A DNA stretch of 64,000 nucleotides from Emcibacter sp. (GTDB lineage: Bacteria; Pseudomonadota; Alphaproteobacteria; Sphingomonadales; Emcibacteraceae), in the NCBI GenBank assembly GCA_021774785.1, contig JAJFIQ010000019.1:620001-684000 (forward strand). The letters run 5' to 3'. Both the position numbers and the translations under genes were made by a program. Of the stretch, positions 14,452 through 35,815 are shown piece by piece (the first letter of the stretch is position 1; each line of letters opens with the position of its first letter). The notes below the pieces were generated by a model. The model worked only from the letters and a program-made list of their open reading frames with translations. It was not told the DNA's origin and searched no databases.

Positions 14452-14538
14452 TATCCCATCCACAGTTATTTTACTATTATGGTGTTATATTTATGCATTA
14501 AACTGGTTCCAAAAGTATTACTTTCCGTAATTTAATAT

Positions 14539-15573
14539 TTACCCCAATGATTTAGAAATCAATGGCCCAACAAAATTTGTTACCGCTAAGGGAAGTTTTT
14601 TCCAGACCTTTATCATCAGTTGATATTTTGGATTTAGCGGATTGATATCCGGTATTTCCTCGCCATTCTTCAGAATGAATTCATAATTTAAAGGTGTAGC
14701 CTCAAATCCCCAATTTTTTTTAAAACTAAAGGCCCCTGTGCCGTTTTTACTTCGTCCGAAATCAAATATTTTGCAATTTTTTTTATCAACCGCCCTTTCC
14801 ATCAGGGACCAATACATAAAGTCATTGGCGGCAAGTGCCCTTGCTTCCACGGTTCCCCCTCCATAATAGGGTATAACCTCATCACGAAAATAAAATGTCA
14901 TCACACTGGATATGGCTTTACCTTGATCCGTTTCTATAGTCAGTATTTCACAATTTTCACCATATTCCTGCTTCAGACAATAGAATAGTTTTTTTGGAAA
15001 TACCGGAGAGCCTAAATTGCGAAGGCTTTCAGAATACATGGAAAACAGACGGTCGGGCTGATCATCAATAATGGCTCTTAAACCAAACTTGATACCTTTT
15101 CGCACCATAGCCCGTTGTTTCCTGGGAATGGCCAACATATTTTCTTCATTATCATCAGATAAAGCCTTCCGAAATGTTGAATACATTTCTTTCTTAGAAG
15201 GCCAATCATCATGCACCACATCCATATTCCGACATTCAAGATAATCAACACCCAGTTTTTTAGACAACAATCGACATTCTTCATCCAGTAATGCCAAAGC
15301 TTGTGCGTTATCAAATAAAGGACCGCCACCTGTAGCAAAGGCAACAGAAATAAGTGAATTACCAAAAAGGCTGCTTTTTATGTGAATAAGAGGAACGAGT
15401 GCACAAATTTCACCCTTGTCTTCAATCATAATATAATAGCTTTTATGCCCCATACTTGAGCATACTGCCCTGCCCCAAGCAGACATATGATAAACTGTTG
15501 CCCCCGGATAATTTTCCACATAATCATCCCATTTGCCACAGTCACCAAAAATATCCAGCATTTTTACTTGCAT
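14539..15573 (-). CDS. FemAB-like peptidyl/acyl transferase, XrtA/PEP-CTERM associated
   Basis: This GNAT-fold protein of about 344 residues is of the FemAB/BioF2-like type. It contains YHMSAWGRAVCSSMGHKSYYIM near the N-terminus, PRKQRAMVRKGIKFGLRA in the middle and the acceptor-site region FDFGRSKNGTGAFSFKKNWGFEATPL near the end. This order matches the FemAB proteins that accompany exosortase A. It probably transfers an aminoacyl or acyl group onto a sugar or peptide during exopolysaccharide assembly. I choose the ATG at 15573 because AGGGA precedes it and it starts two bases after the deacetylase gene. An upstream ATG at 15618 would overlap that gene. Confidence 0.85.
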   Translation of the reverse strand: MQVKMLDIFGDCGKWDDYVENYPGATVYHMSAWGRAVCSSMGHKSYYIMIEDKGEICALVPLIHIKSSLFGNSLISVAFATGGGPLFDNAQALALLDEECRLLSKKLGVDYLECRNMDVVHDDWPSKKEMYSTFRKALSDDNEENMLAIPRKQRAMVRKGIKFGLRAIIDDQPDRLFSMYSESLRNLGSPVFPKKLFYCLKQEYGENCEILTIETDQGKAISSVMTFYFRDEVIPYYGGGTVEARALAANDFMYWSLMERAVDKKNCKIFDFGRSKNGTGAFSFKKNWGFEATPLNYEFILKNGEEIPDINPLNPKYQLMIKVWKKLPLAVTNFVGPLISKSLG

Positions 15574-15575
15574 AA

Positions 15576-16424
15576 TTATCCCTGACTGTCCAAAAAAATC
15601 TCGTCCATGCGCCCCCAACTGAATTCTGCCAAAACCCTCCGTAATTTTTTTTCCATAATTACTAGGTTGGTGTAATGGCGGAATTTAGATTTTAGGCCGG
15701 CTTGTGTTTGGCGGGGCTGATCCGGGTCAATTTCCCATGGATGAAAATAAAAAATACAGGGTTGTTTGTCTTTTTTATTTACCCGCTGCATGGCAAAATT
15801 CGAAATAAAATAAGGTAGCAACCGAAAATATCCACCGCCGCCACAGGGAATTTTACGTCCAAGAACTTCTACAGTCGTTACGGGCATTTCCAAGAAATCT
15901 TGGTTTTTAATAGGAGAAAAAGCGAAACGCGAAGCTGTTGGCATACCATAATGGTCATGCTGAATAGGGTAAATACTGGAACTATATTTATATCCAGATT
16001 CATATAATGCTTCTAATGCCCAGAGATTCTTCTCGCCGATTGAAAAACTTGGTGCACGGTAACCGTTCACTTGGCTTCCACTAATATCTTCCAGTAATTT
16101 TTTAGAGGATTTCACATCGTCCATAAATTCTGTGTGAGATTGATCAGTCGCTCGCCTATGGTTCATGCCATGGCTTGCCAATTCGTGACCGTTTTCTGTT
16201 ATTTGTCGAACAATCAGAGGATATCTTTCAGCAATCCAGCCCAAGGTGAAAAAAGTTGCTTTTACGGAATGGTCATCAAACATCTTTAGGATGATGTCCA
16301 TATTACGCTCTATACGGCACTCAAAATTATCCCAGTTTGATCGCCTTATATCATTTTCAAAAGCACCCACCTGAAAGTAATCCTCCACATCGACTGTCAT
16401 TGCATTTTTAATTCTGCCTGACAT
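15576..16424 (-). CDS. XrtA-associated polysaccharide deacetylase
   Basis: The 282-residue NodB-type deacetylase has motifs in family order. The metal-site acidic motif is DVEDYF (residues 12-17), then ATFFTLGWIAERYP, the histidine motif HELASHGMNHR, RAPSFSIG, and HPWEID near the C-terminus. The DVEDYF form of the first motif and the C-terminal HPWE are typical of the exosortase-linked subfamily. It would remove N-acetyl groups from the exopolysaccharide during synthesis or export. No signal peptide is visible, so it likely acts in the cytoplasm or at the membrane face. It is five bases from the ATPase gene upstream and two bases from the FemAB gene downstream. Confidence 0.88.
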   Translation of the reverse strand: MSGRIKNAMTVDVEDYFQVGAFENDIRRSNWDNFECRIERNMDIILKMFDDHSVKATFFTLGWIAERYPLIVRQITENGHELASHGMNHRRATDQSHTEFMDDVKSSKKLLEDISGSQVNGYRAPSFSIGEKNLWALEALYESGYKYSSSIYPIQHDHYGMPTASRFAFSPIKNQDFLEMPVTTVEVLGRKIPCGGGGYFRLLPYFISNFAMQRVNKKDKQPCIFYFHPWEIDPDQPRQTQAGLKSKFRHYTNLVIMEKKLRRVLAEFSWGRMDEIFLDSQG

Positions 16425-16429
16425 CTAGG

Positions 16430-17464
16430 TCAACTACCCTGACCATCATTTTGATCTACCAGATCAGTGACAATTTCAAGTGCACTTTTTATAGTCTCAT
16501 CATGAATTTTAACGTATTCTTCCAATAAATATATACGCTCTTTCAGGGCTTCTACTTCTTGGTCATTCATGTGAGAGTTTTTGGACGAATATTGATTTCT
16601 GAGTGCTGGTTTCAAACCATTGATATTTTGCGATCTAGGGCCAGAGGACGCAATGTCATGCTCCATATCCTCTATTACATTTAATACGGTATTTTTATCA
16701 ATGATATCTAACTCCTCGATAGCACCAAATAATAAAATACGTGAGCATAATGTATTCAGCTTCCGCGGGACACCGTTTGTGAATTTAAATATCTCCTGAA
16801 ATGAATCCTCGGTAAAATGAGGCCTATCATTCCATCCAACTATTTTCATCCTATGGTGAATATATTCTCTTGTTTCTGCATCAGTCATGGATTGAAGGTG
16901 ATGTGTCGCAATTACCCGCTGACGAAGTTGTTCCAGTTCTGGAGCAAAGGCCCATTTATCCCTGAATTCTGGCTGTCCAATCAAAAAACTCTGAAGCAGG
17001 GCCCGGTCCCCTTCCTGAAAATTTGACAACATGCGCAGCTCCTCCAAAGCGGATATAGGAAGATTTTGCACCTCATCAATGATTAATAGGGCGCGCCGAC
17101 CACTTTTATGGTTTTGCCGAAGAAACACTTCAATTTCATTTAGAAGAACGGCCTTGTCTTTCGAATGAATATCCAATCCAAACCCGGCAGCGACCATCCG
17201 TAATATATCATCAGCATCAAGATGGGTTGTAACTATTTTCGCAGCAACATACTGATCCGTATTCAGCTCATTCAGCAAACGCTCTACTAGTGTTGTTTTA
17301 CCGGCTCCAATTTCACCCGTTACAATGATGAATCCTTCACCTTGGCTTAAACCATAGGTGAGATATGCCATTGCTTTGTGATGGGTAGAACTATCGAAAT
17401 AAAAACAGGGGTCTGGTGTTAATTGGAATGGCTTACCATTAAATTCGTAAAATTCCGTATACAT
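16430..17464 (-). CDS. XrtA-associated ExeA-like ATPase
   Basis: The 344-residue AAA ATPase opens with MYTEFYEFNGKPFQLTPDP, the start typical of ExeA/MSHA-type secretion ATPases in XrtA loci. Walker A GEIGAGKTTL is at about 50-59 and Walker B LLIIDEVQNL at 126-135. A region of helical, charged sequence near residues 300-335 (ALKERIYLLEEYVKIHDETI) looks like a coiled coil. It probably powers assembly or secretion at the inner membrane. It lies between the outer-membrane barrel and the deacetylase genes, with gaps of 5-7 bases to its neighbours if the upstream stop is counted, which indicates one operon. Confidence 0.87.
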   Translation of the reverse strand: MYTEFYEFNGKPFQLTPDPCFYFDSSTHHKAMAYLTYGLSQGEGFIIVTGEIGAGKTTLVERLLNELNTDQYVAAKIVTTHLDADDILRMVAAGFGLDIHSKDKAVLLNEIEVFLRQNHKSGRRALLIIDEVQNLPISALEELRMLSNFQEGDRALLQSFLIGQPEFRDKWAFAPELEQLRQRVIATHHLQSMTDAETREYIHHRMKIVGWNDRPHFTEDSFQEIFKFTNGVPRKLNTLCSRILLFGAIEELDIIDKNTVLNVIEDMEHDIASSGPRSQNINGLKPALRNQYSSKNSHMNDQEVEALKERIYLLEEYVKIHDETIKSALEIVTDLVDQNDGQGS

Positions 17465-17471
17465 AATTCAC

Positions 17472-18899
17472 CTAAAGTCCCGCTCTGACTGACAGTGAAA
17501 TATAGTTTGAACCACCGTTTAAATTAGTGAATCGCGTCTGGTCCCGATCGGTATGGACATACCCTAGAGTACCAAATAATGATTTTGAGATTCTGTAACT
17601 AACATTGGCTGATGCACTCCAGAACTTATCTCTAATAGAGTCATTTGAGAATTCTGATGAACTATAGGTAAAACCACTACTTATACTTAAACGCTGATTT
17701 AAGTTCCTGCTAATGGTAAAGTTACCCCCATATTCAGTTTCATCGAGCGCATTGTTATCTGACCTATTCTTTCGATGAAAGGCCGTTGCAGCGTAAGTTG
17801 TGCGCCCTCTTATTCCCTGTACAGTTAATGCCCATTCTTTTCTGCGAGTAAGGTCCCCACTAATAAACCCGCTATTCAGGGAGGGGGAATTAATTACATC
17901 AACATTATCACTAAAGACCGTTGATTGAAAAGTTTGAATTGTGTCACTAAAGGACAGATTTATACTGTCTTTGGCCGTAATCTTATAGTGTGCATTTAAG
18001 GAAAATGTATCACCATCATTTTGATTACCATATCTGAGCGAAAGCGATGTCCTTGGTCCTGGAACAAGACGAAAGCCTGCATCCCAAATAAAGCCGTTAA
18101 AGTTTACAAATGATCCTAATTCTGCTTCTCTTTCCTGATACCCGGCACTACCCAATACTGTCAGAATATGTGATAGTTGATACGAAAAATCAGCACGCAC
18201 TGTCGTCGTATCAAAATCTCTGGTATTTTCCCTGTCTTCTGTACGATATAATGCTGATAAACCCCAGTTTAACCTGGTAAAACGACTACCACTAGTTACA
18301 GAGAAACTACCTTCATGGCTCAATGAATTTCCAAAAAAAGTATTTGCCGTTGTCTGTTCAGCATCCTCTGCTTGTCGAACATGTCTCAAATCATAGCTTA
18401 GTTGTACTGTTGCCAAAGCCCCTATTCTATGCACAAGATATGGAGAGAATTGATAGGATTGGACTGTACTCCTATTATCGGTTCTACTGGCTTCCTGTGA
18501 TGAGATTGCTTGACGACGGTCTAAAAAAAGTTGGTCAATGTTAGCGCTGGCATCAACAAAAAAAGTTTCACTGATTAATTCGCTGCTCAACCTTGCTTGC
18601 AGGTTATGTCGTAATTCATGCTGATCATCATCATCACCTGGATAATAAAAATAATTAGGGGCATAATTAATTAATGTGTTTAAACGCGAACCATCTCCCG
18701 TTATCCTTATCTGAGGTGTAACTTGTGTGATAAAATCACTTTGACTACTGCTTGTATCCAGATCAACATTATCCGTATATATCTCGGCCACAGTAATAGT
18801 AGGCTCCACACGCCAGCTTGCCGCGTTTGCGCTAAATATAAAACCAGAAATAGCTACCGATGACATCAGAAGTAGCATTGATTTTTTGCAAGTATACAT
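17472..18899 (-). CDS. XrtA-associated outer-membrane beta-barrel protein (TIGR03016-like)
   Basis: This protein of about 475 residues has a signal peptide (KKSMLLLMSSVAISGFIFSANA). The rest is rich in alternating hydrophobic/polar strands and aromatic girdles, such as LNTLINYAPNYFYYPGDDDD and GTLGYVHTDRDQTRFTN. The C-terminus NYISLSVRAGL is a typical barrel end. The pattern fits the outer-membrane proteins of PEP-CTERM/XrtA exopolysaccharide loci, probably the channel for the polymer. I choose the ATG at 18899, with GGGG a few bases upstream, because the earlier in-frame start at 18953 would overlap the tyrosine kinase and spoil the signal peptide. Confidence 0.8.
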   Translation of the reverse strand: MYTCKKSMLLLMSSVAISGFIFSANAASWRVEPTITVAEIYTDNVDLDTSSSQSDFITQVTPQIRITGDGSRLNTLINYAPNYFYYPGDDDDQHELRHNLQARLSSELISETFFVDASANIDQLFLDRRQAISSQEASRTDNRSTVQSYQFSPYLVHRIGALATVQLSYDLRHVRQAEDAEQTTANTFFGNSLSHEGSFSVTSGSRFTRLNWGLSALYRTEDRENTRDFDTTTVRADFSYQLSHILTVLGSAGYQEREAELGSFVNFNGFIWDAGFRLVPGPRTSLSLRYGNQNDGDTFSLNAHYKITAKDSINLSFSDTIQTFQSTVFSDNVDVINSPSLNSGFISGDLTRRKEWALTVQGIRGRTTYAATAFHRKNRSDNNALDETEYGGNFTISRNLNQRLSISSGFTYSSSEFSNDSIRDKFWSASANVSYRISKSLFGTLGYVHTDRDQTRFTNLNGGSNYISLSVRAGL

Positions 18900-18921
18900 T
18901 CTTCCCCGCCCTCGCCTTTTG

Positions 18922-19845
18922 TCAATAATATCCATACCCATAATAAGAACCAAATCTTTTCTTACCCGCTGTAAATCTTGCCTTGTTTAAAAGCAAATTT
19001 ATATTTTTACATTTTTCAATTAACTTAAATGCATCATGTAATTCTTCTTCCCGTGTTCTTTCTGCTTCAATAACAAATAAAATTTGCCCGACATGCAAAG
19101 CCAGAACTGAGGCAGCACTACTTGCCAAAACAGGTGGAGAATCAATAATTACAATGCGATCATGATATCTTCTGGCAATTTCATCAATTATTTCACCCAT
19201 ACGTTCACTGGCAAGTAATTCTGTTGTCAGTTTATGTTTTTTACCCGCAGGCAGGATTGACAAATTAGAAATATTTGTTCTTAACAAACATTCACTAAGA
19301 TCCATATCCTTGTTTTCAATAACATCGATTAGCCCTTTATCCCCTTTAACGCCAAGTGTCCGCAGGACATCTGGCTTTGCAACGTCTGCATCCACCAGAA
19401 GAACTGTCAAGTCCCTCTCAGCAGCCATACTCAATGCCAGACTAACAGCACAAAAGGTTTTGCCTTCATTGGGTTGTGTACTGGTTACCAGTACAATATT
19501 CCCATTTTTAATAGCAGATTCACCTTTGGAAAAAGCATTCAATAACAGACTTCGCTTAACAATACGAAATTCTTCAGTCGTAAGTGAGTTCTCTATATCA
19601 TCATTGGTTTGAATATTATTCTTCATCAGAATATCAGTACTCAACTCAACTCGTGCCCTGTTTGCCACAGATTGGTTGCTGGCCTTTAAACTATTGGAAT
19701 CACCAACAGGACCCGAAAAAGTTTCTTTTCCGGAAACTGTATTATTATCCTCTGAAACAACATTATTTTTCAGTTGCTCCGCAGCGCGTTCAACCAAACT
19801 CTCACTTTTCTTTAGTTTTGCTGCTGCTTTCTCAATCAAACTCAT
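18922..19845 (-). CDS. XrtA-associated tyrosine autokinase (BY-kinase)
   Basis: The 307-residue cytoplasmic kinase of the CpsD/CapB type has a P-loop TSTQPNEGKT at 121-130 and Walker A' VLLVDADVAKPDV from 148. A later Walker B-like strand is IVIIDSPPVL. The C-terminal tail GSYYGYGYY supplies five tyrosines for autophosphorylation. The N-terminal ~90 residues are a charged linker. BY-kinases pair with a Wzz-type chain-length protein and cycle phosphorylation during polymer export; that partner is the gene just upstream. The stop lies 22 bases before the chosen barrel start. Confidence 0.87.
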   Translation of the reverse strand: MSLIEKAAAKLKKSESLVERAAEQLKNNVVSEDNNTVSGKETFSGPVGDSNSLKASNQSVANRARVELSTDILMKNNIQTNDDIENSLTTEEFRIVKRSLLLNAFSKGESAIKNGNIVLVTSTQPNEGKTFCAVSLALSMAAERDLTVLLVDADVAKPDVLRTLGVKGDKGLIDVIENKDMDLSECLLRTNISNLSILPAGKKHKLTTELLASERMGEIIDEIARRYHDRIVIIDSPPVLASSAASVLALHVGQILFVIEAERTREEELHDAFKLIEKCKNINLLLNKARFTAGKKRFGSYYGYGYY

Positions 19846-19873
19846 TATTTTTTACCTTTGAACTAAGTTCAAT

Positions 19874-21460
19874 TTAAACCGATACAGAGTGCATTATACT
19901 CATCACCAAATATACGCTGATGCTGGAAACAAAAAGACCTGCCATCATGATTGAAAACATAATTAACTTCTTCTTCCTGATTACCAATTCTTCTGCTGAC
20001 AGAAGAACAGAAATACGTCCAAGTACAGGATAAGGAAATGCATCCCTTAGCTTCTTTTCCGTTGAATATGTGGAATGCATTTGACTAATGATATACGCGA
20101 TAAACACACCAGCACCTAATCCAACTGCCAATACACCGATCACCAATAATATACGATTTGGACTGGAAGGTTCCCTAGCTTCCTGTGGTGGGTCAATGAC
20201 CCGAAACCGTACACGGTCTGTATTAGTCTCCAAATCAGACGAAATTTTTGCAGATTCACGTTTAACCAGCATTTGATCATAATTCGTTTTAAGAACATTA
20301 TAATCACGATTAAGTCGTATAAGTTCTGCTTCAACTTCGGGAATTCTGTGGGCCATCGCCTGAAGATTTTCAGTCACCTTTTCTTTGGCGCGCAACCGTG
20401 ACTGCTGACTGGCTATTTCGCTTTCCAAATCGAATAATCTAAGGCTCAACTGGTCATAAACCGGGTTGGGCATTACCCCACCTGTAGATTGCAATGCTTT
20501 TGTATCATTGCTCTCAAGAGCTTTATTAAATTTTTCCTGTTCTTTTTCATGCTTTACTTTAAGGGATTCAATTTGGTTCAGAACAATTCGAATATCTGGA
20601 TGCAGGTCTTTATACCCACGAGCGTAAAGCTCATCCAAACGGGATTCTAAAATATTAATCCTTCCCTGCAGGGCTGAAACAGAAGAAGAAGAACCACCAC
20701 CACGCAACGTCGGACCGGTCCCCATAGACGGAATATAAGAAGGAATATTAGCCAAATTTTCCTTTAGTTGTCTTTCACGGTTTTTATACTCAAGCAGTGA
20801 TTGTTTGGCTGTAGCAACTTCTGAAATACTCAATTGGAGTTTCTCAAAGTAAGATTTATCAGATAGGAAAGCCATATTTTTTTGCCGAAACTCTGTCGCA
20901 CGCTGTTCTGAAATTTCTAACTGCTCTTCATATTCACGAATTTGATCTTCAATAAATCTAACGGCTGACGTTAAATCTTTCCTATTTTGACCAAGGTTTT
21001 CTTCCATGAATATATTTAATAGTGACTGCACAACCATTTTGGCTATTGCCGGGTCGACATTATTGTATGCAATTGTGAAAAGATTAGCAGCCTGAATATT
21101 GATGCTAATCTCCCCCATAATCTCATTTATCTTTTCTTCCATTTCCTCATCATTATTTATAAGGAGGTCCTGATCCGTCATTCTGATTATTTTTTCAATA
21201 TTCGGGCGACTGATCAGGGTCTGGCGCATTAAGGCAACTTGGTTATAGATATTATTCTGCACTGCCATTTTACCGAGCAAAGGCTTAAGAAAAGTTTCTG
21301 CATCAACTTGAATACGGGCTTCCGATTCATAGACATTCGGAATTTGGGCGACAAAAACCCAACCTATGACGCAAATAACCCATGCAATGGAAATAGCGAC
21401 TATACGCTGTCTCCAAACGCCATATAATATCGAGATAAGTTGTTGATATACCTCGTTCAT
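19874..21460 (-). CDS. XrtA-system polysaccharide chain-length determinant (Wzz-like)
   Basis: The 528-residue inner-membrane protein has a first helix at about 17-36 (RIVAISIAWVICVIGWVFVA), a Wzz-type domain and a long periplasmic coiled-coil region (about 170-400). A second helix lies at about 430-455 (GVLAVGLGAGVFIAYII) and a further hydrophobic segment at the C-terminus. The motif IDPPQEAREPSSPNR before the second helix is the proline-rich signature of polysaccharide co-polymerases. It sets polymer length and activates the BY-kinase. It lies 118 bases downstream of the export lipoprotein gene, separated by a hairpin, and 28 bases before the kinase gene. Confidence 0.87.
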   Translation of the reverse strand: MNEVYQQLISILYGVWRQRIVAISIAWVICVIGWVFVAQIPNVYESEARIQVDAETFLKPLLGKMAVQNNIYNQVALMRQTLISRPNIEKIIRMTDQDLLINNDEEMEEKINEIMGEISINIQAANLFTIAYNNVDPAIAKMVVQSLLNIFMEENLGQNRKDLTSAVRFIEDQIREYEEQLEISEQRATEFRQKNMAFLSDKSYFEKLQLSISEVATAKQSLLEYKNRERQLKENLANIPSYIPSMGTGPTLRGGGSSSSVSALQGRINILESRLDELYARGYKDLHPDIRIVLNQIESLKVKHEKEQEKFNKALESNDTKALQSTGGVMPNPVYDQLSLRLFDLESEIASQQSRLRAKEKVTENLQAMAHRIPEVEAELIRLNRDYNVLKTNYDQMLVKRESAKISSDLETNTDRVRFRVIDPPQEAREPSSPNRILLVIGVLAVGLGAGVFIAYIISQMHSTYSTEKKLRDAFPYPVLGRISVLLSAEELVIRKKKLIMFSIMMAGLFVSSISVYLVMSIMHSVSV

Positions 21461-21531
21461 AACTTAGTTCCTGATATTCAAATTATTATTTTTATTAGCT
21501 ATATTTACAGCTACAGTTACAAAAATTGAAA

Positions 21532-21563
21532 TGGCCAACAGCTTTTCATTTAACTATTGGCCA
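21532..21563 (-). terminator. Hairpin between export lipoprotein and chain-length genes
   Basis: TGGCCAACAG and CTATTGGCCA form a 10-base stem with one G-T wobble and a 12-base loop. A T-rich stretch (TTTCAATTTTTG) follows on the minus strand. It lies just after the stop of the export gene. It looks like a weak intrinsic terminator or attenuator that would lower expression of the downstream genes relative to the lipoprotein. Confidence 0.45.
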
Positions 21564-21578
21564 CTCCGGCCCTATAGC

Positions 21579-22253
21579 TCAAAAGAAGCTTTCTGGAATG
21601 ATAATCACATCACCAGGGTTAATTTTTACATTAGCACTAACATCGCCGTCTCTAATCAGGTCATCAATGCGCAGGCCATATTCTCTTTGAACGCCACCTT
21701 CAATACGGGCTAACGTTGCGCGATTACCAGCCGCAAATTCAGTTACGCCACCAACGGTGATCATAACGTCCAAAAGTGTCATATTTGCCCGAAAGGAAAT
21801 GGCCTGTGGTTCTGTTGCAGAACCCACTACCCTAACTTGCTGAGCAAATGGCCCCTGAAAACCTGAAACTATAACGGTAACAATCGGTCCTTGGATATAT
21901 TCAGATAATTTCTTTTCAATATCACGGGCCAACTGTGTTGGTGTCCGTCCCGTTGCCGTCATATCGTCAATGAGCGGTACAGAAAATCTGCCATCAGGGC
22001 GTACGGTGACTGATGTGGTCAATTCTGGATTACGCCATACAAATATTTGCAAACTGTCCAGTGGACCAACAATATATTGCGGCCCTGGTCCCTCTTCAGC
22101 TGGCACAAACTGTGCTGATGGTAAAGTGTTTTTACTGCTGTTTTCACAGCTCGCTAAGAATACAGCACATATTAAAATGATACTGTATTTGATACCTTGA
22201 GAAATAATCCCGGGTTTGAAATTGTTATTAATCACTGCATATTTCCCTTCCAT
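21579..22253 (-). CDS. XrtA-system polysaccharide export lipoprotein (Wza-like)
   Basis: The 224-residue lipoprotein has an N-terminal hydrophobic stretch ending in a lipobox L-A-S-C (lipidated C36). It is followed by the polysaccharide export domain (QYIVGPLDSLQIFVWRNPELTTSVTVRPDGRFSVPLIDDMTA, quoted in part) and a SLBB-type segment (ISFRANMTLLDVMITVGGVTEFAAGNRATLARI). It would form the periplasmic and outer-membrane exit ring for the polymer, together with the barrel protein. It is the first gene of the minus arm that runs to xrtA. The upstream 258 bases to the asparagine-synthase-like gene should hold the promoter. Confidence 0.87.
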   Translation of the reverse strand: MEGKYAVINNNFKPGIISQGIKYSIILICAVFLASCENSSKNTLPSAQFVPAEEGPGPQYIVGPLDSLQIFVWRNPELTTSVTVRPDGRFSVPLIDDMTATGRTPTQLARDIEKKLSEYIQGPIVTVIVSGFQGPFAQQVRVVGSATEPQAISFRANMTLLDVMITVGGVTEFAAGNRATLARIEGGVQREYGLRIDDLIRDGDVSANVKINPGDVIIIPESFF

Positions 22254-22511
22254 TATATTTCATAACCTGTCCTAATCCTACTCATTATGTTAAGACTTAC
22301 TTCGCTATCTACTATATGAGTAGTTTGAATAGGTTAAATTAGTACAAATAAATAATATTTTTTCTACTAACACTATGTGTTAACAGAATTACTACCAAAC
22401 CGCTATTTTAAAAGAATATTTCACTACATTATAGTGAAAAACAATAAACATTACAAACATTAGAATATTACCTGACCCGCAAACATATGATCCCACTTAT
22501 TACATTGGGTT
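22254..22511. promoter_or_regulatory. 258-base A+T-rich gap before the export operon
   Basis: No ORF of useful size is present. The region lies between the end of the asparagine-synthase-like gene and the start of the export lipoprotein gene, both on the minus strand, and presumably carries the operon promoter. A short dyad CTACT-N5-AGTAG lies at about 22312-22326. I see no confident -35/-10 pair and no sigma-54 site. Confidence 0.3.
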
Positions 22512-24380: not shown

Positions 24381-24401
24381 ATAAACTACTTTCCCGTTCC
24401 G

Positions 24402-25646
24402 TTACACCAGCACTTCATAGGGTGCAGGATGTCCTAAAAATGCTGTTGGGCTTGCTGATAAACCATAAGCACCAGATTGAAACAATACGACATAGTCACC
24501 AATTTCAGCCTGCGGTAAATTCATTTTATCCCCTAACCGATCCAGTGGGGTGCATAGACAGCCGACAATATTGACTTTTTCTTTTTCTGATATGTCCATT
24601 CGGTTTGCAATGGCCACGGGATAATTTTTACGGATGAGTTGGCCAAAATTACCTGATGCCGCAAGATGATGATGCATCCCACCATCAGTAATAAGATAGA
24701 CTTCTCCACGAGATGTTTTTTTATCAATGACCTTTGTCACATAAACACCAGATTCACCGACCATATAACGTCCTAACTCAAGGACAACTTCAGTATCTGG
24801 CAGCTCATTTTGAAATTTTTGTAATAATTTGGATAGGCCATTGCCCAGAATCTGCAAACTCAATGGTTTGTCACCGGGAAAATACGGAATTCCAAAACCG
24901 CCACCTATATTAACTTTTTTCGGCATATTTGGTGCATGTTTGGACAAGGATAGCACAAGATTCAGGGCTTTTTCCTGTGTTTCCAGCAAGCTACTTTCAT
25001 TCAGGTTTTGTGATCCGCTAAATATATGGAACCCGATAAAATCCAAATCCAGTTTGGCAACTCGCTTCAACATTGCAGGGACTTCTTCGCTATCAACACC
25101 AAACTGCTGGGGGCCACCGCCCATTTTCATGCCGGATGATTTCAATTCAAAATCTGGATTCACCCGAATGGCAACCTTGGCTACAATATCTTGTTCTTTG
25201 GAGATTCGGGCAATATTCTCCATCTCCGCAAAAGATTCCATATTAATCAGTACACCTGCGGCAATTGCCTGTGACAATTCTTGTGAAGTTTTTCCCGGAC
25301 CCGCAAAACTAATCAACGCAGGGTCCATACCCGTATCCAGCGCAATAGCCATTTCCCCGGCAGAGGCCAAATCCAAACCATCTACAATATGGCTCATATG
25401 ATGAACCACAGCTGGCATTGGGTTGGCTTTCATGGCAAAATGTAATTTCACTTGCGGTGGCAGATATTTTCGCATTTCTGCTATCCGTTCCGAAATCAAG
25501 GCCCTATCATAGGCATAAAAAGGTGTGGAACCCACACGGTCTGCTAATTGGCTGATCTTGATACCACCAACAGTCAGCTCCCCATCCTTGGCCGGAAAGC
25601 CATGAGTAGCTACGTGTTCGGGCTTTTTCTTTTCCATCTTTGTCAT
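24402..25646 (-). CDS. PLP-dependent decarboxylase, exosortase A associated (LysA/ODC fold)
   Basis: The 414-residue protein is a fold-type III PLP enzyme. The cofactor lysine is K73 in LHFAMKANPMPAV, the glycine loop is NIGGGFGIPYFPGD, the phosphate-binding region is ELGRYMVGESGVYVTKV, and near the end VVLFQSGAYGLSASPTAFLGHP carries the dimer-interface motif. Such proteins decarboxylate diaminopimelate, ornithine, lysine or similar acids; this subgroup is linked to exosortase A loci and its substrate is not known. Its start overlaps the acyl ligase stop by four bases. I infer that it supplies an amine to the ligase/ACP module. Confidence 0.87.
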   Translation of the reverse strand: MTKMEKKKPEHVATHGFPAKDGELTVGGIKISQLADRVGSTPFYAYDRALISERIAEMRKYLPPQVKLHFAMKANPMPAVVHHMSHIVDGLDLASAGEMAIALDTGMDPALISFAGPGKTSQELSQAIAAGVLINMESFAEMENIARISKEQDIVAKVAIRVNPDFELKSSGMKMGGGPQQFGVDSEEVPAMLKRVAKLDLDFIGFHIFSGSQNLNESSLLETQEKALNLVLSLSKHAPNMPKKVNIGGGFGIPYFPGDKPLSLQILGNGLSKLLQKFQNELPDTEVVLELGRYMVGESGVYVTKVIDKKTSRGEVYLITDGGMHHHLAASGNFGQLIRKNYPVAIANRMDISEKEKVNIVGCLCTPLDRLGDKMNLPQAEIGDYVVLFQSGAYGLSASPTAFLGHPAPYEVLV

Positions 25647-27232
25647 TGCACTTGTATTTCTTTTTTTATCTGTGCAGCAATCGTCTTGTGATCAATCTTT
25701 CCATTGGCATTTTTCGGCAAACTATCCCACTGGATCAATTCATGCGGCACCATATAACTTGGCATTTCCGCCCGACAGTAAGCCATAATAGCTTCCATAT
25801 CCAGATTTCCTTGTCCCTTAGCCGTTGCCACGACCCAGATCGCCTGCCCCAGCTGTTCATGATCAACACCAATGGCGGCTATTTCATCAACCAGACCACT
25901 GGCAAAAATGGTTTCTTCCAATTCTGTGGGGCTGGTTCTGAAACCAGAAGTTTTTATCATTTCGTCACGACGGCCAACGAAATAAAGATACCCATCATCA
26001 TCTCTTTTTACAGTATCACCCGACCATACAGCAATTTCCGGATTTGACAGCCCAGCTGCCTGTCCAGGTGCCGGTCTGTATCTTTCAGCTGTTCGTTTCT
26101 TATCGTTCCAATAACCCAGGCCAACCAAAGCACCCCGATGGACAAGTTCTCCTTCTTCACCCACATCACAGACTGTGCCATCTTCTCTTACAATCATAAT
26201 TTCTGCATTCGGTATGGCTTTTCCCATGGAATCCGGAATCCTATCCACCTCTGACGGCGGTAGATAAGTGGACCGGAAAGCTTCGGTCAGGCCATACATA
26301 AGGAATATATCACTTTTACTGAGTATTCTCTGGAATTTGCGGGTTACGGGTACCGGCATTCGGCCGCCCGTTGTTGCAATATATCGGATGGAATTTACCG
26401 CTTCCTCTGGCCAGTCAAGTTCTGCCAGTTGAATCCATAACGGTGGAACACATGTAATACCAGTGATTTTATGCTTCACAGCCAGCCGAATGACATCTCG
26501 CGGCAACAGAAAGTTCATCAGAACGACCGTCGCCCCGACTGAGAAGGCTGTGGTCAATTGGCTTAGTCCGGCATCAAAGCTAAGCGGCAAAACACTTAAA
26601 ATCATGTCATCCGAACTATTCTCCAGATAACTTGCAACACTTTCCGCACCGGCAATCATATTGCGGTGGGAAAGAACAACCCCTTTGGGCATACCCGTAC
26701 TGCCCGATGTATAGAGAATAGCGGCCATATCCGCATCAATGGTTTCATGAACGGTTTTGTCACTATCACGCCCTAGCGCAAGGAAGTCGTTATAACTGAT
26801 TATTTTCTGGTCTATTTCTATGGCTTTATCAGGTATTTTACCCGTAAGAATAATCAATTCCAAATCAGGACAGTCCGTTAATTCATCCTTTAAAGCCGCA
26901 AGCCTGTCAGGGCTGGTCACAAGAAACCTGACATTGCAGTCTTTCAGGATATAGGCCACCTGTCGATGTTTCAGGCCCGGGTTGACCGGTACAAATACCC
27001 CGCCCGCATAAGAAGGGCCGAAAATCGATATAACAGTTTCAAATTGTTTGGGAAGATAACAGGCCACCCTGTCATTTTTATTAAGGCCGAATGCCAATAA
27101 TCCCTTGCCATAATCCTTAACTTCATCACAAAGCGCATCATAGGTCATCTCCTGCTTTTTGAAAATGACGGCGATTTTCTGTGAAGATTTCTTTTCCGGA
27201 CTTGTAACAAAATCTGAAAGATTATATGCCAT
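25643..27232 (-). CDS. Acyl-CoA ligase (AMP-forming), exosortase A associated
   Basis: The 529-residue adenylating enzyme shows the ANL-superfamily core motifs: YTSGSTGMPKG (174-184), MYGLTEAF (312-319), SGDTVKRDDDGY (404-415), GRRDEMIKTSGFR (420-432) and the C-terminal catalytic lysine K512 in NANGKID. It activates a carboxylic acid as acyl-adenylate and passes it to a thiol, either CoA or the acyl carrier protein encoded at 30960. It begins the minus arm and is divergent from the aminotransferase gene across 234 bases. It is coupled to the PLP decarboxylase by a four-base overlap. Confidence 0.87.
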   Translation of the reverse strand: MAYNLSDFVTSPEKKSSQKIAVIFKKQEMTYDALCDEVKDYGKGLLAFGLNKNDRVACYLPKQFETVISIFGPSYAGGVFVPVNPGLKHRQVAYILKDCNVRFLVTSPDRLAALKDELTDCPDLELIILTGKIPDKAIEIDQKIISYNDFLALGRDSDKTVHETIDADMAAILYTSGSTGMPKGVVLSHRNMIAGAESVASYLENSSDDMILSVLPLSFDAGLSQLTTAFSVGATVVLMNFLLPRDVIRLAVKHKITGITCVPPLWIQLAELDWPEEAVNSIRYIATTGGRMPVPVTRKFQRILSKSDIFLMYGLTEAFRSTYLPPSEVDRIPDSMGKAIPNAEIMIVREDGTVCDVGEEGELVHRGALVGLGYWNDKKRTAERYRPAPGQAAGLSNPEIAVWSGDTVKRDDDGYLYFVGRRDEMIKTSGFRTSPTELEETIFASGLVDEIAAIGVDHEQLGQAIWVVATAKGQGNLDMEAIMAYCRAEMPSYMVPHELIQWDSLPKNANGKIDHKTIAAQIKKEIQVQ

Positions 27233-27466
27233 AGGTACTTATATCTTTTTATATTAAAATTTTTTCACAACATAATGTATAAATGTTATTGAAATATGAA
27301 TAAAAAAGGGCTCAACCAATTTTCTAAGACTATATAGTAGATATCACTCTCTTTATACGAGCTTTCACTATATTAACCAATAGCCTTTGGATCGGGTAAT
27401 AGAAATTTCATGATTCACTAGTAAAAATGGCCAACATAAAAAATATATAGGAATACGGGTTCAGTT
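27233..27466. promoter_or_regulatory. Divergent promoter region between the acyl ligase and the aminotransferase
   Basis: The 234-base A+T-rich gap separates two divergent arms. It contains a perfect 10-base palindrome ACTATATAGT at 27329-27338. No ORF is visible and I could not assign -35/-10 boxes with confidence. The shared region would allow co-regulation of both arms. Confidence 0.35.
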
Positions 27467-28711
27467 TTGGCAGATAATAAAAAACAGATCAAACGGCATA
27501 TAACGTCCCAAACAACGACAAAAATCGTTCATGGAAAAGAAGTTTACAGACAAATTCCTGCCCCCTTAATTCCTGTATTTCCTGTAATGTCATTGGCAAG
27601 TTTATTTCCACTATCTTCTCATAAAGTTCCGTCATTGTATCAAAGCCGCCAGATACAATATTTTACAGCTGCCCGCTATGCACTATATCAGGCACTCAAG
27701 GAAATTGACGTAAAAGAAAATGATGAGGTCCTTGTTCCAGCCTACCATTGTAAGGCAATGGTTTCCCCAATTCTGGATGCCGGATGTATACCCGTATTCT
27801 ATAAAATCAATGACGATTTTTCCACAAATATTTCAGACCTTGAAAGCTTGATCACACATAAAAGCCGTGCCGTCATAGCCGTAAATTATTTTGGCTTTGT
27901 CCAGAATATTAAAGAAGTTCGCAAGGCATGTGACCAACATGATTTGAAGCTTATAGAGGACTGCGCCCATAGTCTATTTGGGCGTTCAGATAATATAACC
28001 GTTGGGCATACGGGTGATTATGGTATTGGCAGTACAAAAAAATTCTTTTCTGTGGAACAGGGAGGGATATTAACGCGTAGGAAAAAATTTACTCAAGATG
28101 GTCGAACACCAGAAAGTAACATCAAGTCAGAAATTCGTTTTCTATACAATACTATCGAAAGATCACTTGAGTATGGTCGGTTATGGGTTTTTACACCCCT
28201 GATTTATATTATTGAAAAACTACGCGGTAAGGCTGAACAGGATAAAACCCAAGCATTTATGGAAGTTTCTAATTCTTCTGACGATCCTTATGAAGAATAT
28301 TTACTAAAAGACAGACTGAGCCAGCCGACGAAACTTTCAATGTTTCTGGAAAAACAGGTTTCCCATAATCGCATTTTTTTAAAGCGCCGTGAAAATTATA
28401 TTTATTTGCTAAATGCTTTGAAGAATATTCAAAATATTACTGTACCGATTACTGAAGTTCCTGCCGGAATTGTTCCCTATATGATTCCAGTCATTATTGA
28501 AAATTTAGAGGATATATTCCCGGATATAGAAGATAAAGCTATCCCTTTCCAAAGGTTCGGTCAGTTCTTATGGCAAGGATCGGAAAGATGCCCAGTCAGT
28601 CAAAAATATTCCAATACAATTCTTCAACTCCCCTGCCATCAGGAATTATCGAAAAATGATCTTCAGTGGATTGTCGATGAACTATATAATATTATAGGCC
28701 AAGATAGATGA
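27467..28711 (+). CDS. DegT/DnrJ/EryC1-type aminotransferase-like protein
   Basis: The 414-residue fold-type I PLP protein contains the DegT-family landmarks. These are AARYALYQALKEI, DEVLVPAYHCKAMVSPILDAGCIPVFY, EDCAHSLFG (D165 for the PLP ring nitrogen) and GSTKKFFSVEQGG with the likely Schiff-base lysine at K191/K192. Family members aminate nucleotide-linked keto-sugars. The start is TTG at 27467 with AGGAA upstream, as no in-frame ATG occurs until about residue 41. It overlaps the tandem-GNAT gene by four bases. I infer that it makes an amino sugar, or modifies one, for the same polymer as the XrtA locus. Confidence 0.8.
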   Translation: MADNKKQIKRHITSQTTTKIVHGKEVYRQIPAPLIPVFPVMSLASLFPLSSHKVPSLYQSRQIQYFTAARYALYQALKEIDVKENDEVLVPAYHCKAMVSPILDAGCIPVFYKINDDFSTNISDLESLITHKSRAVIAVNYFGFVQNIKEVRKACDQHDLKLIEDCAHSLFGRSDNITVGHTGDYGIGSTKKFFSVEQGGILTRRKKFTQDGRTPESNIKSEIRFLYNTIERSLEYGRLWVFTPLIYIIEKLRGKAEQDKTQAFMEVSNSSDDPYEEYLLKDRLSQPTKLSMFLEKQVSHNRIFLKRRENYIYLLNALKNIQNITVPITEVPAGIVPYMIPVIIENLEDIFPDIEDKAIPFQRFGQFLWQGSERCPVSQKYSNTILQLPCHQELSKNDLQWIVDELYNIIGQDR

Positions 28712-30870
28712 CACATGATAACAAACAAAACTACATTTGGACATTCGTATCCGTAAAAGAATTTTCACAGTTGAAAAACCAGTGGGATGATATAAATCAA
28801 CGAAATCAGAACACTCCACTACTGGACTCAATGTTTGTTATTCCCTTATTGGACACTTTTTCATCAGGTCAAGAATTGATTGGTATCTGTAAAGTAGATA
28901 ATAAAACTAAAGCAATAGGCATTTTTGAAAAAAAGAAACGATTTTTTGCTACTACTTTCCAGCCCAATCAGGCACCAATAGGGCTATTAGTATCGGACAA
29001 ATCATTAAACTACGAGCAATTGTTTCTTTCACTTATTAAATCCTTTCCTAGCTATATTCTAAATTTTGGTATTTTATTCCAGGATAGTAATTCTTATCAG
29101 AATTACCCAAATAATTCATACATGAATAGCAGCTTGGCTTTCCATACACCAAGCATCTTGATAAAAGGTGATTTTACTAATTTCTGGAATCAGAAATCAA
29201 AATCTTTTAGAAAACAATTTAATAATAGATATAATAAATTACAAAAAAACAATATCATTACGGAATGTCAATCTATTACAAATCCCAAAGATATTAAAAA
29301 AATCATTGCTTCTTTTGGGCTGATGGAATCTGCTGGCTGGAAAGGACGTTCTCATACAGCAGTTCATCCAGATAATATTCAAGGAAAACTTTATGAAAAA
29401 ATATTCACTAACTTTGCCATAAAAAATGAAGCGCTCATATATCAATATTGCTACAACCAAAAGGTTGTTGCTATGGATATGTGCCTGATCCGAAATAAAA
29501 TTCTTTACATAATGAAAACAACATATGATGAAGAACAAAAAAATACATCGCCAACGCAATTGATGCGTAGGGAATATCTTGAAACATTTTTTAATAATAA
29601 AAAAGTAGTCACGGTTGAATCTTATGGTCGAGTTAAAAACTGGCACCAATATGTTGCACAGCGCTTCCGCCCAATATTCATCACAAATATTTATAGATGG
29701 CCCTTTCTGGAAAAACTGCATAAAATAAGACTAAGAGATGGTTTATTAACCAAAAATAATGATTTTACCCTTGAATTACAATGCTATGATAGTATCAACA
29801 AACTTCCTGTCAAAGTAAGGAATGCTTTATCCCAAATTAATGAAACTTCTTTTTTTAAAGGACACACTTGGTTTGAACTTCTTGAAAAATATGCACTACC
29901 TAAAAATCACACCGTTAAAATCTATATCCTTCAGGATAGATTTAGTATGACACCACTAATGGTGTATCCTATATTAATAAATAAACAAAAAACACTTTTT
30001 GGCACACACACGACACTCACTGATTTTAGCACCCTATATGGTTTAGAGTTTTCGCCAATATATTTAGAAAAAAATCAAAATGAAGTTGATCTTCTATCCT
30101 TCTTTTTCTCTAAATTTAAAAATGATATTAAATGGGATGTCCTTAATATCGGACTACTTTATGAACGACAAGGGAAAACAGAAACACCATTTCAAAAGCA
30201 TCTATCTGCCACCAAAAAGAACTTTTCACTTCTGGATAAATATTATCATTCAATAAATTGGGTTGCCAATATCAAAGAAGGGGATTTTACCTCTTATCTG
30301 AATGAACGTCCCAAAAAATTACAAAACACATTGCGTCGGAAAGAAAGCAAATTAAATAAAAACACTTCATCTGAAATAATCATATATGATAGTATGGATA
30401 ATATTGAAAATGCCATTGAAGATTATCAGAAAATCTACCAGTCAAGCTGGAAAGAAGCTGAATATAGCTCTGATTTTATTCATAATTTCATTAGAAAAAC
30501 TGCTCAACTTAATATACTCAGACTTGGTATATTATATATCGATGGAAAACCAGCATCATTCGTTAAAATGATATTATCTGACAAAAAAGCAATTATCTAC
30601 AAACTCGCTTATTCACCAAAATACAATAGTTTCTCTCCGGGCAGTATTCTTCTATATAAAATAATCAAACATATTGTTGAAAAAGATAACATAGAACATA
30701 TAGACTTCGGTATTGGCAATGACCCTTATAAAAAAGATTGGATGCATAAAAAATCCCAAATTTTTGGCATTATTATTTTCAATAAAAAAACAGTATTTGG
30801 ACTCATAACCGCATCAAAACATTTTATTGGCAAGTTTTTGAAAAAAATAAAACCCGGGAACGCAGAATAA
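28708..30870 (+). CDS. Tandem double-GNAT (BioF2/FemAB-like) acyltransferase
   Basis: The 720-residue protein contains two copies of a GNAT_6/BioF2-type domain, roughly residues 1-340 and 350-700. Matching landmarks recur in both halves: a basic helix FWNQKSKSFRKQFNNRYNKL at 159-178 and a similar one with RPKKLQNTLRRKESKL near 534-549, then SPTQLMRREYLE at 281-292 and SPGSILLYKIIK at 643-654. Such domains N-acylate amino sugars or load amino acids. The gene is visibly more A+T-rich than its neighbours, which may indicate transfer. It is coupled to the aminotransferase upstream and followed by the acyl carrier protein gene, so an ACP-bound donor is plausible. Confidence 0.72.
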   Translation: MTHDNKQNYIWTFVSVKEFSQLKNQWDDINQRNQNTPLLDSMFVIPLLDTFSSGQELIGICKVDNKTKAIGIFEKKKRFFATTFQPNQAPIGLLVSDKSLNYEQLFLSLIKSFPSYILNFGILFQDSNSYQNYPNNSYMNSSLAFHTPSILIKGDFTNFWNQKSKSFRKQFNNRYNKLQKNNIITECQSITNPKDIKKIIASFGLMESAGWKGRSHTAVHPDNIQGKLYEKIFTNFAIKNEALIYQYCYNQKVVAMDMCLIRNKILYIMKTTYDEEQKNTSPTQLMRREYLETFFNNKKVVTVESYGRVKNWHQYVAQRFRPIFITNIYRWPFLEKLHKIRLRDGLLTKNNDFTLELQCYDSINKLPVKVRNALSQINETSFFKGHTWFELLEKYALPKNHTVKIYILQDRFSMTPLMVYPILINKQKTLFGTHTTLTDFSTLYGLEFSPIYLEKNQNEVDLLSFFFSKFKNDIKWDVLNIGLLYERQGKTETPFQKHLSATKKNFSLLDKYYHSINWVANIKEGDFTSYLNERPKKLQNTLRRKESKLNKNTSSEIIIYDSMDNIENAIEDYQKIYQSSWKEAEYSSDFIHNFIRKTAQLNILRLGILYIDGKPASFVKMILSDKKAIIYKLAYSPKYNSFSPGSILLYKIIKHIVEKDNIEHIDFGIGNDPYKKDWMHKKSQIFGIIIFNKKTVFGLITASKHFIGKFLKKIKPGNAE

Positions 30871-30959
30871 TCTAATAGATACTTTTTAAAAATATATGCC
30901 TATTGTATAACAAAACAAATTTTAACTTTAATACTGAATTAAATTTAGAGAATTTTTTT

Positions 30960-31211
30960 ATGTCCATAATTGAAGACGTACGTGAAATTTTAAAGGCAAC
31001 GCTGCAAATTGGCGACAGGGCCAGTGATATTGAAACAGATACTCCCCTCTTAGGCAATATTCCAGAACTTGATTCCATGGCCGTCGCTATGCTGATAACA
31101 GCTATCGAAGAACATTTTGATGTTTTTGTAGAGGATGACGACATCAGTGCAGAAACATTTGAAACCTTCGGAAGCCTGTGTGAGTTTGTGGAAGAAAAAC
31201 GGGCTGAATAG
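30960..31211 (+). CDS. Acyl carrier protein, exosortase A associated
   Basis: The 83-residue acidic helical protein has the phosphopantetheine attachment motif ELDSMA (S39). The helix pattern DVREILKATLQ, then DSMAVAMLITAIEEHF, then ETFGSLCEFVEEK is that of carrier proteins. It would carry an acyl or aminoacyl group on its pantetheine arm, loaded by the acyl ligase at 25643 and used by the neighbouring transferases. I choose the ATG at 30960 because the upstream in-frame ATG at 30903 adds an unrelated A+T-rich tail. It lies ten bases before the hydrolase gene. Confidence 0.87.
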   Translation: MSIIEDVREILKATLQIGDRASDIETDTPLLGNIPELDSMAVAMLITAIEEHFDVFVEDDDISAETFETFGSLCEFVEEKRAE

Positions 31212-31220
31212 AAGGGCAAT

Positions 31221-32039
31221 ATGAAACCTTTTTTCATTAAAAGCGTATCCGGCAATATATTTGCCCTCTATCACTCGCCATCGGATGATACCCCCTTTAA
31301 AAAAAATATTCTTTTCATTCCGCCTTTCGCTGAAGAATTAAACAGATCCCGTCACATGATAAACCGCCAGGCCCGAACCTTTACGAAAGCCGGATATGGC
31401 GTGCTTATTCTTGACCTGTATGGCACTGGTGACAGCGAAGGCGTCTTTGGGGATGCCACTGTCCATATATGGCAACAGGACATTCTCGCAGCCATAAACT
31501 GGTTAACTGAGACCTCTGATAAGCCACCGGTCCTCTGGGCCATGCGTAGTGGGGCACTGCTCGCCGCTGACCTTATCCAAAAATACCCTGACCTTACGGA
31601 TCACATGATTTTATGGTCTCCGGTCGGCAATGGGAAAAGATTTATCACTCAGTATATGCGCATAAAACTGGCCGCAGACGTAACAGGTAGTTCAAGTGGT
31701 TCCAAAGTCACTGTAAAAGATTTATGGTCACAGTTAGAAGACGGCCATAGCGTCGAAATAGCGGGGTATGAGTTATCACCAGAGCTGGCAATAGGTTTTT
31801 CTGCCTTGTCTTTGAATGAAATAAAGTTGCCGCAGAAAATACATATTAAGTGGATTGAAACTTCTTTAATTGATCCCCCTAAGCTTTCCACCGGCTCTCT
31901 CAAAATTGTCGATAGATGGCGGAATGATGGTATCCAAGTATCTGATATAGCTGTGAATGACATCGCTTTCTGGACCTTACAAGAACCAGAATGGGCAAAT
32001 AACTATATTGAGCAAACCATAAGTCTGTCTGAACAATAA
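31221..32039 (+). CDS. Alpha/beta hydrolase-like protein, exosortase A associated (hydrolase 2 type)
   Basis: The 272-residue protein has the alpha/beta hydrolase fold pattern: ILFIPPFAEELNRSRHM, then VLILDLYGTGDSEG, then the nucleophile elbow LWAMRSGALLAADL. The elbow aligns with G-x-S-x-G as A107-x-R109-x-G111, so arginine sits where the nucleophilic serine is expected, with a serine (S110) next to it. This may mean the protein is not a classical hydrolase. The family accompanies exosortase A loci. It ends one base before the convergent HyuB-type gene, closing the locus. Its substrate is unknown. Confidence 0.8.
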   Translation: MKPFFIKSVSGNIFALYHSPSDDTPFKKNILFIPPFAEELNRSRHMINRQARTFTKAGYGVLILDLYGTGDSEGVFGDATVHIWQQDILAAINWLTETSDKPPVLWAMRSGALLAADLIQKYPDLTDHMILWSPVGNGKRFITQYMRIKLAADVTGSSSGSKVTVKDLWSQLEDGHSVEIAGYELSPELAIGFSALSLNEIKLPQKIHIKWIETSLIDPPKLSTGSLKIVDRWRNDGIQVSDIAVNDIAFWTLQEPEWANNYIEQTISLSEQ

Positions 32040-32040
32040 A

Positions 32041-33711: not shown

Positions 33712-33713
33712 AA

Positions 33714-35795: not shown

Positions 35796-35815
35796 AATCA
35801 TTCCTTGAGTTTAGC

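Follow-up and report, generated by a model that had tools for sequence, protein, structure and literature searches.

What do the decarboxylase and ligase families TIGR03099 and TIGR03098 make where they occur beside exosortase A (XrtA) genes? Exosortase A loci are widespread among environmental Proteobacteria, and we know of no description of either the decoration of their polymer or the point at which proteins are attached to it. We examined this question in a 64,000-nucleotide stretch of an Emcibacter sp. genome (contig JAJFIQ010000019.1, positions 620,001 to 684,000; hereafter "the window", to which all coordinates refer unless a locus is named), where a pyridoxal phosphate (PLP)-dependent decarboxylase and an ANL ligase face a DegT-like aminotransferase, a 720-residue transferase, an acyl carrier protein (ACP) and a hydrolase-fold protein. 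Window proteins pass the cut-offs of TIGR03098, TIGR03099 and TIGR03101, models whose names specify no substrate or product, and the proposal made here covers the first two. We consider it probable that these genes encode an ACP-based assembly line on which an acidic amino acid is loaded and decarboxylated, and from which the resulting aminoacyl group is passed to an amine.

Specifically, we propose that the ligase acts first: it would adenylate an acidic amino acid, with L-Asp or L-Glu the likeliest candidates, at the side-chain carboxyl group and attach it through a thioester bond to the ACP phosphopantetheine. The decarboxylase would then remove the alpha-carboxyl group on the ACP, yielding beta-alanyl-S-ACP or 4-aminobutyryl-S-ACP, and the FemX-like/GNAT transferase would move the amino-acyl group from the ACP to an amine. 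The exosortase-A-linked polymer would most plausibly supply this acceptor, on one of its sugars or repeat units, and in this lineage the DegT protein, whose gene overlaps the transferase gene, may make the acceptor amine. The proposal draws on gene content, co-conservation of the core, kinship with BtrK and VinN, retained residues and the FemX fold of the N-terminal transferase half, all read from sequence. The order of reactions is the most likely one by analogy with characterised relatives; the amino acid, the acceptor and the polymer as target are what we infer beyond this, with VinN and AfcQ pointing to Asp and BtrK to Glu.

Comparable lines are described for several antibiotic pathways. 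In vicenistatin biosynthesis, among the CHARACTERISED relatives, 3-methylaspartate must be bound to VinL as a thioester before VinO can decarboxylate it (PMC11284099). In the AFC-BC11 pathway AfcQ activates L-Asp, not beta-Ala, and loads AfcK, AfcP decarboxylates on the carrier, and AfcQ can extend to oligo-beta-Ala (PMC12186527). For bolagladin, a bolN deletion is not rescued by beta-alanine (PMC7756342), and in butirosin biosynthesis BtrK decarboxylates glutamate bound to the carrier BtrI (PMC7857480). The module in the window shares with VinN/VinL/VinO the three-part logic of ligase, standalone ACP and PLP decarboxylase, a likeness that for the decarboxylase rests on the described role of VinO and not on its sequence; it differs in that no polyketide synthase (PKS) or VinK partner was found here, with the FemX-like/GNAT transferase and XrtA polysaccharide genes present instead. 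Its likeness to BtrI/BtrK lies in a decarboxylase that is closest to BtrK in the PDB and falls in the same clade, in an ACP-bound substrate, and in the butirosin end product, an amino-acyl group on an aminoglycoside amine, comparable to the amino-sugar acceptor considered here. The ligase is a point of difference from butirosin, since the window module has an ANL enzyme whereas BtrJ of the butirosin pathway is another ligase type. The Burkholderia systems AfcQ/AfcK/AfcP and BolO/BolC/BolN combine a VinN-like ligase, a standalone carrier and a BtrK-like decarboxylase; L-Asp is loaded and then decarboxylated in both, which was reconstituted for Afc and proposed for Bol. These two, likened by description, build lipopeptides and not a surface polymer.

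The gene grouping itself is real and coherent. Among 398 genomes drawn evenly from the phylum and screened at the TIGR03099 and XrtA cut-offs (the two draws are taken as the same 398, as number and handles agree), 30 genomes held the decarboxylase and 35 held XrtA, with both together in 27, so that the association with exosortase A, stated in an earlier note on this DNA, is a real one. We then read stretches of ~20 kb around the 30 decarboxylases with profiles made from a first locus set, five members of which (window included) are among the 30. The ligase was present at 29 loci, directly adjoining the decarboxylase in 27, and the ACP was also present at 29, in one case fused to a transferase; its Ser motif was kept in 29/29, and in 27 loci its gene and that of the decarboxylase were on opposite strands. 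Hydrolase 2 (the hydrolase-fold protein of the window) accompanied 11 of the 30 loci and DegT only 3. Since this core is co-conserved in relatives, the grouping is more than chance, and the joining of decarboxylase, ligase, ACP and transferase into one module, as the earlier note had it, stands (ligase 29/30, ACP 29/30, transferase profile 13/30). The TIGR03098 cut-off was passed in 13 of 385 genomes of the class. Further afield, the S. meliloti replicon pSymB has a ligase–decarboxylase pair (57% identity) within a polysaccharide region, with an ACP whose coding sequence falls in two frames in the record consulted, and a B. cenocepacia replicon holds a 51% relative. On pSymB (L162, 11463-16459) the ligase is preceded by a 295-aa protein that is GNAT-like by eye.

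The same chemistry might instead yield a small diffusible metabolite, such as a signal, a lipopeptide or a siderophore part, in place of a polymer decoration. We regard this as unlikely, although the characterised relatives (vicenistatin, butirosin, bolagladin, AFC-BC11) all yield small molecules and relatives below the cut-off include a decarboxylase–acyl-CoA dehydrogenase fusion (L054): members over the cut-off occur with XrtA in 27/30 genomes, often beside polysaccharide export or chain-length genes, and no partner of the nonribosomal peptide synthetase (NRPS) or PKS type was present among the module proteins scanned.

Support for decarboxylation on the carrier comes from the decarboxylase itself. 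In a search against the PDB its best matches were two BtrK entries (282 and 280 bits), with the best diaminopimelate decarboxylase at 170. We aligned 56 TIGR03099-type decarboxylases (fetched loci plus window; profile score >300 and length >340, shorter or weaker rows excluded) with 13 LysA, 5 ornithine-decarboxylase-like proteins and BtrK, to which the highest identity of any aligned row was 40%. The window protein carries the BtrK signature LCTPxD / DGGMHHH, and the CT pair of LCTPxD occurred in 56/56 TIGR03099-type rows and in BtrK, compared with 0/13 LysA and 0/5 ornithine-decarboxylase-like rows; LysA rows carry MND-x-x-RPxxY and CE[ST]xD in place of the CT signature. A quick IQ-TREE analysis of 50 rows included 31 of these 56 decarboxylases, which formed one clade with BtrK (SH-aLRT support 99) apart from LysA (99), the position of BtrK within the clade being unsure because its branch is long. 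The enzyme thus probably acts on an ACP-bound amino acid, by analogy with BtrK. A role in lysine or polyamine synthesis was rejected: a separate LysA over the cut-off is present in 12/12 genomes searched, own genome included, and the motifs differ, with the window decarboxylase reaching 248 bits against TIGR01048, below the cut-off of 297.9, and lacking the LysA motifs. At L054 (5104-7590), the BtrK-like decarboxylase fused to an acyl-CoA dehydrogenase stands beside a VinN-like ligase (TECHR motif), and from its sequence the locus looks like a bolagladin-type dehydro-beta-alanine line.

The ligase points in the same direction. With a profile made from 13 ligases, VinN was the best single-domain match in the PDB (301.5 bits; best LgrA domain 270.8). 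With the single window sequence, four NRPS chains ranked above VinN (153 bits); one of them was linear gramicidin synthetase, whose several matching stretches add up to 267 bits. Residues were mapped in two steps, from VinN to the L054 ligase and from there to the window, which places VinN Asp230/Ser299/Arg331 at D220/T288/R320; the triad Asp and Arg are identical and the Ser is replaced by Thr, the family having Ser or Thr at this position. In VinN this triad is held to bind the free alpha-amino/alpha-carboxyl group, according to two papers (PMC7756342; for Arg331 also PMC12186527). Among 60 ligase rows >300 bits, D/[ST]/R was kept in 51 of the 52 whose fetched stretch also holds a decarboxylase and in 2 of the 8 whose stretch lacks one (Fisher p 4e-6, a descriptive value because the rows are related). 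For one of these two, L007, the contig ends where a decarboxylase would lie. A different arrangement is seen at L049 (7950-10799), where a TIGR03098-type ligase, an ACP-like domain and a membrane acyltransferase are fused into one 949-aa protein; there is no decarboxylase, and the ligase has lost the triad Asp and Ser.

Together, the BtrK kinship and the VinN triad favour an order in which loading comes first and decarboxylation follows on the ACP. They do not support the sequence of events suggested in the earlier note, decarboxylation followed by loading by the ligase. In that case a free amino acid would be decarboxylated and its product (4-aminobutyrate (GABA), beta-alanine or lysine) would be loaded on the ACP afterwards. 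Such an order is chemically possible and could draw on the family's resemblance to diaminopimelate decarboxylase (TIGR01048, 248 bits), but we hold it to be distinctly improbable: the ligase keeps the residues held in VinN to bind a free alpha-carboxyl group, the decarboxylase groups with BtrK and not LysA, beta-Ala is not activated by AfcQ, and beta-alanine did not restore bolagladin in the bolN mutant. An ordinary acyl-CoA or fatty acyl ligase, with fatty acyl chains carried by the ACP for use in an N-acyl amino sugar or lipid, is very improbable, even though the NCBIfam name reads acyl-CoA ligase, fatty-acyl ligase models score on the window protein and the L049 fusion implies that the scaffold can change use, since fatty-acyl ligases score lower with the profile (at most 263) than VinN (301) and NRPS adenylation domains, the triad is kept where a decarboxylase is present, and a fatty acyl-ACP would leave that decarboxylase without a substrate.

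Transfer from the ACP to an amine would fall to the 720-aa protein, in which the earlier note saw a double GNAT. Two transferase units are indeed present, yet they are a fusion of two different lineages, DegT-linked and ACP-linked. The N-terminal part is 30–36% identical over >300 residues to five DegT-adjacent transferases (26% to that of L100), the C-terminal part matches ACP-adjacent transferases (best 30%), and a tree of 21 transferase units separates the two sets, with some inner branches weakly supported. A recent tandem duplication of one GNAT was rejected, as the halves are only 21% identical (150 residues, E-value 0.007) and fall in two separate groups. At L045 (7968-9263) an ACP-linked transferase and an ACP are fused in one open reading frame (ORF; PF13480 + PF00550), which gives direct genetic support for transfer from ACP to transferase; this fused transferase is in the set with which the C-terminal unit of the window protein groups. 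In the predicted model of the 720-aa protein (mean pLDDT, a per-residue confidence score, 67; most of residues 10-320 at 70-97), residues 7-344 match FemX and FemA with Z 18-19.5, ~300 aligned residues and a root mean square deviation (rmsd) of 4.7-5.0; for FemX (6snr) the values are Z 19.5, 299 aligned and rmsd 4.8 over residues 7-340. Aminoacyl-tRNA-dependent peptide synthases and MprF come next, and the modelled part of the C-terminal half matches single GNAT domains, e.g., aminoglycoside acetyltransferases, with Z ~12. Judged from this model, the tandem-GNAT FemX fold is seen for the N-terminal half, and with <15% identity to the structural matches it is the fold that is shown and not the function.

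Loci without the transferase profile were scanned for a substitute. Ten ACP-adjacent proteins from seven such loci comprised one TIGR03694 acyltransferase, three hydrolase 1 proteins, a biotin synthase, a chalcone-synthase-like protein and four without a match, so no common replacement transferase was found among these ten. The TIGR03694 acyltransferase is from L091, where it comes after the ACP, hydrolase 2 and hydrolase 1, in that order; it also has a weak autoinducer-synthase match. At two loci of near relatives (L003 4381-5067, L004 9035-9760) a 228-241-aa protein stands between the ACP and the ligase where the window has DegT and the transferase; the 228-aa L003 copy had no Pfam or NCBIfam match and is GNAT-like by eye only (model pLDDT 33).

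Several observations weigh against the proposed assembly line. Three of the 30 decarboxylase genomes (G475, G742, G517) lack XrtA over the cut-off and 8 of the 35 XrtA genomes lack a decarboxylase over its cut-off, one locus (L094) has no ligase and another (L098) no ACP within 20 kb, and no exosortase was seen among the annotated neighbours of the pair on S. meliloti pSymB. The transferase profile was found in only 13/30 loci; moreover, the N-terminal half of the window transferase is only ~9% identical to FemX, and FemX enzymes use aminoacyl-tRNA, not ACP. Within the ligases, L106 is a decarboxylase locus without the triad Ser/Thr, and the counterpart in the window ligase of the VinN lysine just before Arg331, which we take to be Lys330 (a number consistent with the alignment), is Phe319. 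With Phe319 in this place the pocket differs from that of VinN and the acid may not be Asp, and we therefore label the ligase "VinN-like" and leave the amino acid unfixed.

The remaining proteins of the two arms are less constant. DegT is an accessory and not a core component: being present in only 3/30 loci, a DegT-made amino sugar cannot be the general acceptor. Its PF01041 match covers residues 71-203 only, and K192 occupies the PLP-lysine position (Lys in 7/7 readable of 8 rows). Hydrolase 2, taken for a hydrolase-like protein in the earlier note, has no Ser/Cys nucleophile and instead Arg109 at the nucleophile-elbow position in 19/19 rows, so that a working Ser hydrolase or thioesterase is not supported and "hydrolase" is a likely misnomer. 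The family keeps E38, E39, N41, R44, D65, D71, R109 and W251; hydrolase 1 relatives have GLCD at the like position (by eye), and the own genome's hydrolase 1 is located away from the module (G000:C4:92731-93558). On the minus strand, an asparagine-synthase-like (AsnB-like) gene is an extra member of the arm, 21 bases downstream of the decarboxylase. Its product scores 266.5 bits against TIGR03108 (XrtA amidotransferase), under the cut-off of 816.9, and begins MTGISG, without the glutaminase nucleophile Cys2; that residue is absent from all eight module-adjacent rows with a readable N-terminus (window included), and two homologues in other loci keep MCG. This suggests an enzyme that is probably independent of glutamine and may couple a different amine with a carboxylate.

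These features also permit a more specific role, in which the module makes the amine onto which exosortase A attaches its proteins. In Staphylococcus, sortase A uses a glycine bridge that FemXAB build, and on this model the FemX-fold transferases would put ACP-made beta-alanyl or GABA on the polymer, the free amine serving as nucleophile in XrtA transpeptidation, while the Cys-less AsnB-like ligase might, alternatively or in addition, link that amine to carboxyls of the polymer. We give this role little credence.

In the window the proposed assembly line adjoins an exosortase A polysaccharide operon (12922-22253; Table 1). The own genome has four matches over the cut-off of a PEP-CTERM model (E-values 2e-4 to 0.07), a cut-off also passed in 2/14 control genomes. 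ORF calls bear out the layout given in the earlier note, i.e., six genes in two divergent arms around a 234-base gap, with a 4-bp overlap between the ligase and decarboxylase ORFs. The DegT and transferase ORFs also overlap by 4 bp. A reading of the sequence favours the ATG at 30960 as the start of the ACP; alignment places its candidate phosphopantetheine Ser within ELDSMAV. Promoter-like sites in 22200-32300 numbered 42 against 34.2 (sd 5.4) in shuffles, not clearly above; a terminator scan gave nothing clearly above shuffles and an Rfam scan no match above threshold.

Table 1 Features of the module and its exosortase A surroundings (positions in the 64,000-nucleotide window).
Feature	Position	Strand	Basis
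Exosortase A (XrtA), EpsI-like C-terminal domain	12922..14463	-	TIGR03109 311.5 vs 208; TIGR02914 111 bits
XrtA-type polysaccharide operon	14539..22253	-	FemAB, deacetylase, ATPase, TIGR03016 protein, tyrosine kinase, chain length, export
Asparagine-synthase-like amidotransferase, 622 aa	22512..24380	-	PF00733 230 bits
PLP fold-III decarboxylase, TIGR03099, BtrK-like, 414 aa	24402..25646	-	625.5 vs cut-off 478 bits
ANL ligase, TIGR03098, VinN-like, 529 aa	25643..27232	-	741 vs cut-off 592 bits
Candidate catalytic Lys of ligase	K512 of 25643..27232 protein	-	Residue map
Divergent intergenic region, 234 bases, separating both arms	27233..27466	.	
DegT/DnrJ-like PLP aminotransferase, 414 aa, TTG start	27467..28711	+	PF01041 99 bits
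720-aa transferase ORF	28708..30870	+	Two PF13480 stretches
N-terminal transferase unit, ~residues 1-372 of 720-aa ORF	28708..29823	+	DegT-linked lineage, predicted FemX/FemA fold
C-terminal transferase unit of 720-aa ORF	29824..30870	+	ACP-linked GNAT lineage, PF13480 82 bits
Acyl carrier protein (ACP)	30903..31211	+	PP-binding PF00550 25.1 bits
Alpha/beta-hydrolase-fold protein "hydrolase 2", 272 aa	31221..32039	+	TIGR03101 263 vs cut-off 203 bits

Beyond these features, a hydantoinase/oxoprolinase-like pair at 32041-35801 (minus strand) is convergent with the module and closest to the caprolactamase CapA/CapB, far below cut-offs (500 and 261 bits vs 1000). The interval 893-2895 (minus strand) holds an HprK-related kinase A (TIGR04352, 259 bits) and, after it, a 364-aa gene that has no NCBIfam match.

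Taken together, the idea of a transfer of an ACP-loaded amino acid, put forward in the earlier note, appears right in outline, with an amino-sugar acceptor as a plausible extension. The chemistry itself is known from antibiotic pathways; we found no description of such chemistry at an XrtA surface-polymer locus in literature searched without most subscription papers, no account of TIGR03098/TIGR03099 in the same search, and no decarboxylase apparent in the accessible portion of the Aquincola floc paper. The proposal supplies a testable chemical identity for a module of previously unknown product. If true, it makes a concrete chemical prediction, i.e., that carbon from Asp or Glu would turn up in the polymer as an amide of beta-alanine or GABA, and antibiotic starter-unit chemistry would extend into cell-surface biology.

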